Assembly: GCF_900102185.1 (NCBI RefSeq)
Contig: NZ_LT629690.1
Coordinates: 1,302,001 to 1,366,000, forward strand
DNA: 64,000 nucleotides
Direction of reading: 5' to 3'
Origin: Terriglobus roseus
GTDB taxonomy: Bacteria; Acidobacteriota; Terriglobia; Terriglobales; Acidobacteriaceae
A program made the translations under genes and the position numbers. The notes under the pieces were generated by a model that searched no databases, was not told the DNA's origin, and saw nothing but the letters and a program-made list of their open reading frames with translations. Below are positions 35,632 to 38,034 of this stretch, one piece after another (the first letter of the stretch is position 1; every line of letters starts with the position of its first letter).

Positions 35632-36381
35632 TTGGCTCCCCGTGTTCTGGTCACACGTGCCCCGCACCAGGCATCGGCGCTGGGAGATGCACTGGCCGCG
35701 CATGGTCTGCGCGTCGCTTCCGTACCCACCATTGCGCTCGCTCCTCCCAGCGACGAGTACGCCACGCTGGACCGCGTTCTCGTCCGTCTGGATGAGTTCG
35801 ATTGGATTCTGTTCACCTCTGCGAACGCAGTTGCTGTCTTCGCAGAAAGGCTTGAGGATGAGGCTGTTCCGTTAACCTGCGGCATCGCCAGCATTGGCGC
35901 GGCTACCAGCAAAGCATTGCGCGACGCGGGCTTTCCTGTGCGTCTGCAGGCGCAGACAGCCATCGCAGAGTCTCTCGCGAAATCGCTGTTACCACACGCC
36001 CGTGGTGCCTCCATGCTGCTGGTGCGCGCAGAGCAGGGAAGAGACGTCCTGATCGAAATACTCGAAGAGGCTGGCGCTGAAGTCACTTTGGCCCCTGCCT
36101 ATCGCACAGTGATTCCTACGGAATCGGTGGAGCGGTTGAAACGCGAACTGCCTACGGTAGACGCCATCACCTTCACCAGTTCCTCTTCGGTGCAGAACCT
36201 GTTTGCGTTACTCGATGCTGCCGGTCTGACTCTGTCCAAGGAAATGGTGCTGGCATCCATTGGTCCTATTACCACCGCATCGCTCAAGGAGCAGGGACTG
36301 AGGCCCACGGTAGAGGCGCGAGAGGCCACCGTAATATCGCTGGCTTCCGCGGTTGCGACGGCGCTCCGACATCGCGCATAA
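35632..36381 (+). CDS. hemD: Uroporphyrinogen-III synthase
   Basis: A 249-residue HemD, which closes and rearranges hydroxymethylbilane to uroporphyrinogen III. The family is poorly conserved but the usual marks are here: VLVTRAPHQASAL at the start, DWILFTSANAV, the ASIGAATSKALRD loop, and ITFTSSSSVQNLF with GPITTASLKEQGL in the second domain. It starts with TTG, 3 bp after hemC, with GGAGG about 11 nt upstream. It is co-expressed with hemC. Confidence 0.85.
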   Translation: MAPRVLVTRAPHQASALGDALAAHGLRVASVPTIALAPPSDEYATLDRVLVRLDEFDWILFTSANAVAVFAERLEDEAVPLTCGIASIGAATSKALRDAGFPVRLQAQTAIAESLAKSLLPHARGASMLLVRAEQGRDVLIEILEEAGAEVTLAPAYRTVIPTESVERLKRELPTVDAITFTSSSSVQNLFALLDAAGLTLSKEMVLASIGPITTASLKEQGLRPTVEAREATVISLASAVATALRHRA

Positions 36382-36398
36382 AAATCTTTGGAGACGGG

Positions 36399-36426
36399 TG
36401 TAAGGTTCGCTCGCTGGCTGCGTGTT
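36399..36426 (+). promoter_or_regulatory. Possible ECF-type promoter
   Basis: TGTAAG (36399-36404) and CGTGTT (36421-36426) are separated by 16 bp and lie about 40 bp upstream of the Cys-rich mini-gene. They resemble ECF-sigma promoters (AAC-like -35, CGT-like -10) and would fit autoregulation by the downstream sigma factor. The match is loose. Confidence 0.25.
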
Positions 36427-36433
36427 TCTCAGT

Positions 36434-36452
36434 GAGCCGCAGATTACGGCTC
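36434..36452 (+). promoter_or_regulatory. Leader hairpin before the mini-gene
   Basis: GAGCCG (36434-36439) pairs with CGGCTC (36447-36452) around a 7-nt loop, ending only 2 nt before the AAGGAG ribosome binding site (36455-36460). It may tune translation of the mini-gene and, through coupling, of the sigma factor. Confidence 0.35.
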
Positions 36453-36466
36453 TGAAGGAGAAACCA

Positions 36467-36538
36467 ATGAAGTGCAATGAATGCCAATGCGGTGAAGTCT
36501 GTGTCTGCGTCATTTGTGGATGCAAGCGGAATGGTTAG
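36467..36538 (+). CDS. 23-residue Cys-rich mini-protein
   Basis: This very short gene encodes 23 residues, seven of them Cys, spaced C-x2-C-x-C-x3-C-x-C-x2-C-x-C (Cys 3, 6, 8, 12, 14, 17, 19), a nearly mirror-symmetric metallothionein-like pattern. AAGGAG lies exactly 6 nt before its ATG and is too far (16 nt) from the next ATG (36477), which belongs to the sigma-factor frame; the ribosome binding site therefore serves the mini-gene. Its stop overlaps the probable sigma-factor start (ATG 36531), so translation of the two is coupled. The likely role is binding of Zn, Cu or similar metals, perhaps as a sensor or partner of the sigma factor, which ends in a related C-x2-C-x-C cluster. No known family is claimed. 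Confidence 0.65.
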   Translation: MKCNECQCGEVCVCVICGCKRNG

Positions 36539-37124
36539 TTCCTCAGGCGGCTACGGAACATCTCATTCTGTAGCCGCTGCCATGCCTGTAACCACACAAT
36601 TCGACACACTTCTGGAACACCGAGCGCAGTTTCTTGCGTTTTTGGAGCGTCGTCTGCATGACCGCAATAAGGCAGAAGACATTCTGCAAGCGGCCTACAT
36701 CCGTGCGCTGGAACACGAAGGCAATGTGCAGGAGCATGAGTCGGTTGTGGGGTGGTTTTATCGAGTCCTGCGTAATGCGGTGATCGATTCGTACCGCAGA
36801 CACAGTGTGGAGAACGAAGGTCTCGCAGTGCTGGCGAGAGAGATGGAAGATGCCGCTACCCCGCCTGTCGACCTGCGCGATGAGGTGTGTCTTTGTTTGA
36901 AGTCGGCGGTGGATTCGCTGTCGCCTGACTATGCGGAACTACTGCGCGAAGTGGATCTTGCAGATGAACCGCTTGCTGCCTATGCCCAGAAGCGAGATTT
37001 GACCAGCAACAACGCCGCAGTGCGAGCGCATCGTGCGCGTGCGGCTTTGCGCAAGGCGTTGATCCGTTCCTGCGGAGCCTGTGCGGAACATCATTGCGAA
37101 AACTGCACCTGCAAACGCTGTTAA
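36531..37124 (+). CDS. ECF sigma factor with C-terminal Cys/His cluster
   Basis: A 197-residue ECF-type sigma-70 factor. Region 2 (FLERRLHDRNKAEDILQAAYI, WFYRVLRNAVIDSYRR) binds the -10 element and core polymerase; region 4 (LSPDYAELLREVDL, NNAAVRAHRARAALRKAL) binds the -35. The last 17 residues hold six Cys (181, 184, 189, 192, 194, 197) and His 187-188, a likely zinc or redox site. No transmembrane anti-sigma gene is adjacent; the Cys tail and the Cys-rich mini-protein may take over regulation. I use ATG 36531, overlapping the mini-gene stop; an ATG at 36477 is in frame but reads through the mini-gene in the wrong frame, and ATG 36582 is another possibility. Confidence 0.8.
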   Translation: MVSSSGGYGTSHSVAAAMPVTTQFDTLLEHRAQFLAFLERRLHDRNKAEDILQAAYIRALEHEGNVQEHESVVGWFYRVLRNAVIDSYRRHSVENEGLAVLAREMEDAATPPVDLRDEVCLCLKSAVDSLSPDYAELLREVDLADEPLAAYAQKRDLTSNNAAVRAHRARAALRKALIRSCGACAEHHCENCTCKRC

Positions 37125-37129
37125 TGAAG

Positions 37130-37155
37130 AAAGGCATGGCTTGCGCCATGCCTTT
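37130..37155. terminator. Bidirectional terminator
   Basis: An 11-bp stem (AAAGGCATGGC with its complement) and a 4-nt loop TTGC, with T-run on the plus side and A-run on the other, separate the sigma gene from mqnD converging on it. Confidence 0.75.
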
Positions 37156-37176
37156 TCTCGTTCCTGGTGAATCGGA

Positions 37177-38034
37177 TTAGTCGATGAAATCGACCTTTGC
37201 CTTGTGTGGGATCACGCCGCGCTCATAACCCATGTCCAGCAGCTTCTTGATGGCTTCACGTCCGTCGTCGCCGTAGTTCAGGGTGCGCTCGTTCACGTAC
37301 ATGCCCACAAACTTGTTGGCCAGGTTTGGATCCAGATCACGCGCAAACTGCATGGCGTATTCCAGAGCTTGCGGACGGTGATCCAGCGCGTGCTGAATGG
37401 AGTCGCGCAAAGCCTGCGTGGCAATGTGCATGGACTCCGCACCCAGCGAGCGGCGGATAGCATTGCCACCCAGCGGCAACGGCAGACCATCAGTCTGTTC
37501 GCGCCACCACTGGCCCATGTCCAGAATCTTGTGCAGTCCGTTATCGCCGTAGGTGAGCTGACCTTCGTGGATGATCAGGCCCGCTTCGAACTCGCCTGCA
37601 ACCACGCGTGGAATGATCTGGTCGAACGGAACGACCTCATACGCCACTTCCGGATGGAAGAGACGCAGCGTCAGGAATGCAGTCGTTAGTTCGCCCGGAA
37701 CAGCGATCTTCAGCTTCTTCACTTCGTCCGTTGTGTACTTGCGGGGAGCCACGATCATCGGGCCGTAGCCTTCGCCCACTGAGCCGCCACACGCCATCAG
37801 GGCGTATTCGTCCTGCAGGTAGGGGTAGGCATGGAAGCTGATGGCGGTCACGTCATAGTACGGATCGTGAATGGCACGCTGGTTCAGCGTTTCAATGTCC
37901 GTAAGAACGTGGGTGAACTTGTAGCCGGGGACGCGGACCTTGTTCGTTGCAAGGCCGTAGAACATGAATGCGTCGTCGGAGTCGGGGCTGTGGGCCACCT
38001 TGATCTCTTGTACGCCTGTCGGGGTGGTGCTCAT
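37177..38034 (-). CDS. mqnD: 1,4-dihydroxy-6-naphthoate synthase
   Basis: A 285-residue MqnD-type enzyme of the futalosine route to menaquinone. It converts cyclic dehypoxanthine futalosine to 1,4-dihydroxy-6-naphthoate. The family start HSPDSDDAFMFYGL is clear, as are DIETLNQRA, TAISFHAYPYL and the GLIIHEGQLTY motif with its conserved His. The fold is that of periplasmic binding proteins but the protein has no signal peptide, as expected for a cytoplasmic enzyme. It follows bioY by 52 bp on the same strand. Confidence 0.88.
   Translation of the reverse strand: MSTTPTGVQEIKVAHSPDSDDAFMFYGLATNKVRVPGYKFTHVLTDIETLNQRAIHDPYYDVTAISFHAYPYLQDEYALMACGGSVGEGYGPMIVAPRKYTTDEVKKLKIAVPGELTTAFLTLRLFHPEVAYEVVPFDQIIPRVVAGEFEAGLIIHEGQLTYGDNGLHKILDMGQWWREQTDGLPLPLGGNAIRRSLGAESMHIATQALRDSIQHALDHRPQALEYAMQFARDLDPNLANKFVGMYVNERTLNYGDDGREAIKKLLDMGYERGVIPHKAKVDFID

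Follow-up and report, generated by a model that had tools for sequence, protein, structure and literature searches.

A minimal metallothionein-like gene, probably for copper, with predicted control by a neighboring CorE-like sigma factor in Terriglobus roseus

A 23-codon open reading frame (ORF) flanked by hemD (35632-36381) and an ECF sigma factor gene in Terriglobus roseus raises the question of whether so short a frame is a gene at all and, if it is, what its product does beside such a regulator. Positions refer to the window, that is, the whole stretch of 64,000 nucleotides that was analyzed. The translation of 36467-36538 on the forward strand (ATG to TAG), MKCNECQCGEVCVCVICGCKRNG, contains the seven cysteines in 23 residues claimed for it in a preliminary description, arranged as CxxCxCGxxCxCxxCxC, and the AAGGAG likewise pointed out there, a Shine-Dalgarno sequence at 36455-36460 (+), does stand 6 nt ahead of the ATG at 36467. 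With no aromatic residue, no histidine, a cysteine content of at least 20%, and CxC/CxxC clusters, the predicted peptide has the general features of a metallothionein. The mirror-like cysteine spacing noted earlier (gaps of 2-1-3-1-2-1) holds for the first six cysteines and is broken by C19.

A frame this short, matching no family, might have arisen by chance and have no product. It is, though very short, the sole Shine-Dalgarno-led ORF of 15 to 30 amino acids with at least six cysteines in the 64-kb window, and 100 shuffled windows contained a total of two such ORFs, none of them with at least seven cysteines. When the Shine-Dalgarno rule was dropped, the count rose to three in the window, including one that is the sigma gene's own tail read in frame, and to 30 over all of the shuffles. 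Chance is contradicted by these shuffled windows as well as by the conservation, locus controls, promoter motif, excess of pS over pN, and co-occurrence described below, and we regard it as extremely improbable. From the ORF as read, its relatives, the controls, and the substitution pattern, the 23-amino-acid frame is, by all appearances, a genuine gene, one whose metallothionein-like (MT-like) family has not been described.

A search with the sigma protein covered 61 related genomes; the genus is represented by 19 genomes, the organism's own included. The sigma factor (E ≤ 1e-50) was present in 11 of the 19 genus genomes and the mini-ORF in all 11, so that the same frame upstream of the sigma gene, which had been proposed as a check, was recovered throughout; it lies directly upstream in 10 of them and is displaced in one (G006), where it is located about 1.4 kb upstream with a 376-amino-acid ORF in between and with the promoter motif discussed below kept. 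The other eight genomes, some of them incomplete assemblies, yielded neither a sigma nor an MT match. In one genome (G005), a further CorE-like sigma factor, less closely related, is present as well. Conservation of the cysteine spacing, the absence of which was to refute the earlier claim, was also found. Within the genus, all seven Cys of the pattern are retained: C3, C6, C8, G9, C12, C14, C17, and C19 are invariant among nine aligned peptides, two of which have a gap or an insertion. In an alignment of 16 more distant same-strand members, the first Cys varies and the other six Cys columns do not. Substitutions were counted in ten chosen sequences over the exact seven-Cys core, in which cysteine retention is given by construction; the informative part is the silent drift between TGC and TGT, seen in six of the seven Cys columns, together with pS exceeding pN, a pattern that fits a protein product. 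For the window against G007, pS was 0.56 and pN was 0.11, and G015 differed from G008 by three synonymous changes and no nonsynonymous change.

The neighboring gene (36531-37124, +) encodes a CorE-like ECF sigma factor. Both ECF regions were recognized, sigma2 above the cutoff (PF04542, E 4.7e-11) and sigma4 below it (PF08281, E 2.7e-4, 21.0 bits against the Pfam cutoff of 25.7); TIGR02937 matched with 56.3 bits against a cutoff of 42.9. The linker between sigma2 and sigma4 carries a CXC motif at residues 120 to 122 (36888-36896, +), invariant in all 13 aligned sigma factors, and the C terminus carries a Cys-rich domain, C181-x2-C184-x4-C189-x2-C192-x-C194 (37071-37112, +), also invariant in the 13 proteins. 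In the parts of the literature available to us, the linker CXC is described as a feature of CorE-like factors (PMC8999054), and copper-responsive CorE is reported to have cysteines 181, 184, 189, 192, and 194, four of which (181, 184, 192, and 194) are the invariant CorE-type cysteines, with Cys189 in addition in CorE (PMC3107203, PMC9023288). None of the immediate neighbors (the MT-like ORF, hemD, and a menaquinone biosynthesis gene) is a linked anti-sigma factor. The start of the sigma gene is ambiguous: the ATG at 36531 overlaps the MT stop, homologs begin near the ATG at 36582, and the extra N terminus was seen, besides the window, in its two closest relatives.

To place the pair in a wider setting, GTDB genomes were scanned with the sigma alignment; the best 80 of 157 relatives were used and, together with 8 genus and family loci, after removal of five duplicates (L005, L006, L008, L009, and L012, of L049, L048, L044, L051, and L088), gave 88 CorE-like loci. 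A Shine-Dalgarno-led ORF of 15 to 75 amino acids with at least five cysteines and at least 18% cysteine, located from -600 to +400 of the sigma gene, was found in 43 of the 88 loci, a count of nonindependent events because many of these loci are related. Among the controls, the rule picked out none of 17 loci with other types of ECF sigma factor, none of 75 distal segments, and a single one of 880 shuffled segments. No ORF passed at the remaining 45 CorE-like loci, at least six of which (L003, L090, L096, L105, L112, and L121) hold Cys-rich ORFs that fail the rule. With one of these (L003) added by hand, the set comprises 44 MT-like ORFs encoding proteins of 22 to 53 amino acids with 6 to 15 cysteines; relative to the sigma gene, 25 are upstream on its strand, 16 divergent, and 3 downstream on the opposite strand, in hosts that include Acidobacteriota, Nitrospira, and deltaproteobacteria. 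Seven loci (L081, L107, L108, L111, L113, L118, and L122), six of them in Nitrospira, have near-uniform 53-amino-acid Cys-rich ORFs divergent from the CorE-like sigma gene. Given this range, it is plausible that the peptide is among the smallest bacterial metal-binding proteins, as had been suggested.

One argument of the preliminary description did not carry over to the family. The overlap of the MT stop with the sigma start (8 nt) exists only if the sigma gene starts at 36531, and as proof that the frame is real we rejected it, because it is confined to the window and its two closest relatives and 17 of the 25 same-strand loci have at least 54 nt between the MT-like stop and the matched, perhaps not the true, sigma start.

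What the family members have in common, besides their cysteines, is the sequence that precedes them. TGTAA-N17-CGT stands ahead of 43 of the 44 MT-like genes, one of them with N18, and ends 22 to 53 nt before the start codon. In the window, the predicted CorE-like sigma promoter consists of a -35 element TGTAA (36399-36403, +) and a -10 element CGTGTT with the CGT core (36421-36426, +), both assigned from the single motif match in the window (36399-36423) and from conservation at MT-like genes. Because 0.88 matches are expected by chance, this match alone proves nothing, and the weight falls on conservation. Over all loci and both strands, a gap of 17 occurs 80 times and every other gap from 8 to 27 occurs 0 to 22 times, and the motif was found at 73 of the 88 CorE-like loci. 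No sigma70-type promoter was found in 36300-37250. The sole MT-like ORF without the motif is that of L095, whose sigma factor has an aberrant Cys tail. Upstream of the sigma gene of L076, the motif and a Shine-Dalgarno sequence are present, the frame of the proximal ATG is not Cys-rich, and a Cys-rich frame, seen by eye, is in another phase.

The motif also precedes other genes. Under a fixed rule, 32 of the 38 non-MT motif sites are followed by a Shine-Dalgarno-led ORF of at least 40 amino acids; the 6 without one include those of the MT-like L096 and L112. Copper or heavy-metal domains were present in 19 of the 32 ORFs, namely, 11 P-type ATPases (one partial, in a 373-amino-acid ORF), 3 cupredoxins, 3 YHS proteins, 1 HMA protein, and 1 HMBD protein, and all six ATPases scanned with NCBIfam exceeded the TIGR01511 copper-ATPase cutoff. 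At other spacings, the same rule gave such a domain in 1 of 19 distinct ORFs, a YHS match below the cutoff after a gap of 18, with the control ORFs at L084, L097, and L099 left out of the 19 as being gap-17 ORFs as well. The 13 ORFs without a copper or heavy-metal domain were an RND/HlyD adaptor (L056), a NAAT transporter (L094, NCBIfam scan only), a DUF4177 protein, the sigma gene of the locus itself (L098), and nine matchless ORFs, two of which (L090 and L121) are Cys-rich and MT-like. Comparison across these genomes thus shows that the MT-like gene and the CorE-like sigma gene form a putative unit, that the Cys pattern is kept, and that the motif recurs ahead of MT-like and copper genes.

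The transcript of this unit appears to be structured. A 5' untranslated hairpin, GAGCCG-CAGATTA-CGGCTC (36434-36452, +; z of -2.55 for 36427-36466), lies between the motif and the Shine-Dalgarno sequence, and a hairpin of differing sequence occupies this place in most members (mean z of -2.13 for 42 distinct untranslated regions, with z below -1 in 35 of the 42). Support for these hairpins comes from folding energies compared with those of shuffles, the MAFFT alignment of 24 such regions being too poor for covariation. Just past the sigma stop, a stem-loop (37129-37156, +; z of -6.76 for 37120-37165) that is absent from the consensus terminator scan list faces a convergent gene (37177-38034, -) and is probably the terminator of the MT-sigma unit. 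At a number of same-strand loci, L005, L010, L004, L067, and L077 among them, a strong GC-rich hairpin is located instead between the MT-like ORF and the sigma gene; such a spacer is lacking in the window, which has the stem-loop after the sigma gene, and in its two closest relatives. Where the spacer measures at least 54 nt (17 same-strand loci), it usually forms a strong hairpin, as surveyed without a shuffle control; against shuffles, z was -4.47 at L010 and -2.26 at L005. Such a hairpin may favor MT over sigma mRNA, possibly as a partial terminator or an mRNA stabilizer. With the common promoter motif, the 5' hairpin, and the repeated pairing with a CorE-like metal sensor, the earlier proposal of a real metallothionein-like gene gains support from comparative data.

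Since the window ORF immediately precedes the sigma ORF and overlaps it, it might be read as a cysteine- or metal-sensing leader peptide, in which ribosome stalling on Cys codons tunes the downstream sigma gene. Poly-Cys leader ORFs in mycobacteria tune downstream genes, and polycysteine, cysteine-responsive attenuation is mentioned in the portion of the literature available to us. A leader has to act in cis, upstream of the gene that it regulates; the window ORF has this position, but the divergent, downstream, and unlinked members do not. G074 has an MT copy INDEPENDENCE from the sigma gene, on one contig with the sigma match but at a distance of 130 kb, and this copy keeps its own TGTAA-N17-CGT, with an inverted repeat in its leader as judged by eye. 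As this copy and the one separated from the sigma gene in G006 keep the motif away from the sigma gene, control of the MT genes in trans is suggested and a leader peptide is disfavored. Moreover, at most 43 nt separate the window stop from the later possible sigma start, which leaves scant room for an attenuator, and the TGC/TGT drift speaks for a protein product. We set the leader peptide aside on the divergent and unlinked copies and consider it very unlikely.

The association also extends across the class, where among 299 genomes the MT profile (E ≤ 0.01) matched in 18 and the sigma profile (E ≤ 1e-25) in 50. Both matched in 17 of the 18 MT-positive genomes (Fisher P of 7e-14), a test that is not blind because the MT profile was built from MTs beside the sigma gene. 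The two genes are at most 300 nt apart in 15 genomes and 1.4 kb apart in G006. All nine MT loci read outside the genus have the motif; it is absent from L142 and L041. The profile match in G175 was rejected as a false positive, L142 having neither a Cys-rich ORF nor the motif. The 51-amino-acid Cys-rich ORF of L041 lacks the motif and comes from a genome (G054) with no strong CorE-like match; it perhaps encodes an unrelated metallothionein. A search of plasmids with the sigma protein returned 280 records, all with less than 60% identity.

Which metal the pair handles is suggested mainly by the sigma factor. A Zn(II)/Cd(II) metallothionein could be run by the same circuit, with the cognate metal as for CorE2. 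Seven cysteines could bind Zn or Cd, and the best PDB match of the peptide, a weak one (E 0.37 and 0.07, nonsignificant) with the string CGxxCxCxxC in common, is wheat Ec-1 (2kak), a zinc metallothionein. In the available part of PMC9023288, the response of Myxococcus CorE2 is to Cd and Zn, and the second Cys of a Cys-Cys pair sets the specificity. This pair is absent from the window sigma tail, which has the CorE spacing, and from all readable tails of the 88 loci, 77 of which were scored as CorE-type by script; ten others, for which the script frame was wrong or absent, have the CorE spacing by eye, and L095 differs. The tail is spaced as in CorE rather than CorE2, which makes copper the likelier signal, and the genes that follow the motif in relatives include those for copper-type ATPases, cupredoxins, and an HMA protein, so that we hold the Zn/Cd reading to be rather doubtful. 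The sole heavy-metal ATPase of the organism's own genome to exceed the cutoff (L123, 1480-4002, -) was rejected as a target, the motif not having been found in the stretches read (no TGTAA-N16-18-CGT in L123 and L125); therefore, copper is deduced from the sigma spacing and the relatives. This ATPase, whose N terminus resembles a YHS stretch (DPVCGM, by reading), is probably controlled otherwise. Perhaps the metallothionein is the principal target in this species, or perhaps further targets escaped the analysis.

Considering these data, we think it likely that the locus comprises a minimal metallothionein gene, probably for copper, which is driven by, and probably feeds back on, a metal-sensing sigma factor. 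In the proposed circuit, excess metal, most likely copper, would bind the tail and the CXC linker of the sigma factor, and the metal-loaded factor would recognize TGTAA-N17-CGT as its promoter, transcribing the MT gene and also, in this species, its own gene. Several metal ions would then be chelated in the cytosol by the peptide through its seven thiolates, and this sequestration would lower free metal until the sigma factor gives up its metal and transcription ceases. The peptide would in this way detoxify and at the same time serve as the off-switch in a short feedback loop. At the 16 divergent loci, the sigma gene has no motif of its own on its strand within 300 nt, and self-activation would therefore be limited to arrangements such as that of the window.

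Alternatively, the peptide might act mainly on the sigma factor, as a metal donor, competitor, or anti-sigma-like partner, rather than as a bulk chelator. CxxCxC occurs in both proteins, the window pair further shares CxCKR close to the C terminus, and one promoter motif precedes both genes there. Sequestration is the better fit for divergent and unlinked members of up to 53 amino acids and 15 cysteines, and the accessible text of PMC3107203 describes such sigma factors as having no linked anti-sigma factor, with one for CorE not excludable. We consider a peptide acting mainly on the sigma factor improbable. A broader form of the feedback circuit, which we offer as speculation with low expectations, would make an unrecognized family of tiny metallothioneins (22 to 53 amino acids; Acidobacteriota, Nitrospira, and deltaproteobacteria) the standard output of CorE-like sigma factors, with the peptide stripping metal directly from the look-alike Cys tail of the sigma factor as off-switch and detoxifier in one.

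The closest known regulators are CorE and CorE2 of Myxococcus xanthus (former ECF44, now partly ECF238), which share with the window sigma factor the linker CXC, the C-terminal Cys domain with CorE spacing, and the lack of an adjacent anti-sigma gene. A motif ahead of copper genes is likewise found in the relatives studied here, a likeness judged from motif placement. The targets of CorE are a copper oxidase and an ATPase, whereas the predicted adjacent target in the window is a 23-amino-acid MT-like gene; in the available main text of PMC3107203, from which these CorE targets are taken, the word "metallothionein" does not occur.

On the side of the peptide, membership in a known metallothionein family was rejected: no Pfam or NCBIfam model exceeded its cutoff for the window peptide and ten relatives, and the PDB matches were nonsignificant. 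Weak matches below the cutoff among the ten relatives were to Metallothio_2 (E 0.041) and a bacteriocin precursor (E 0.7). SmtA is small and very Cys-rich, and both SmtA and MymT are larger than 22 to 53 amino acids. SmtA/BmtA and MymT of mycobacteria resemble the window peptide in being small, Cys-rich, and under metal-responsive control but differ in that the proteins described here have 22 to 53 amino acids and apparent sigma factor rather than repressor control, a distinction drawn from their descriptions. MymT is controlled by RicR, as stated in the available part of PMC10141476. More similar in size and cysteine number is the metallothionein of Neurospora crassa (PDB 1t2y; 25 amino acids, seven cysteines), five cysteines of which are arranged as CxCx3CxCx2C, as in C6 to C17 of the window peptide. 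This protein, which binds copper, is fungal and absent from the PDB matches of the window peptide; the likeness is probably convergent.

Among the literature matches listed (titles and abstract openings, with few subscription papers covered), we found no report that pairs a metallothionein with an ECF or CorE-like sigma factor. CorE-like sigma factors, characterized in one myxobacterium according to the literature available to us, would gain a widespread output with a defined promoter motif. If the proposal is true, metallothioneins extend down to 22 residues, unrecognized by the family models tried, and one of them belongs to a two-gene metal-responsive switch that would be simple enough for rebuilding and measurement in the laboratory.
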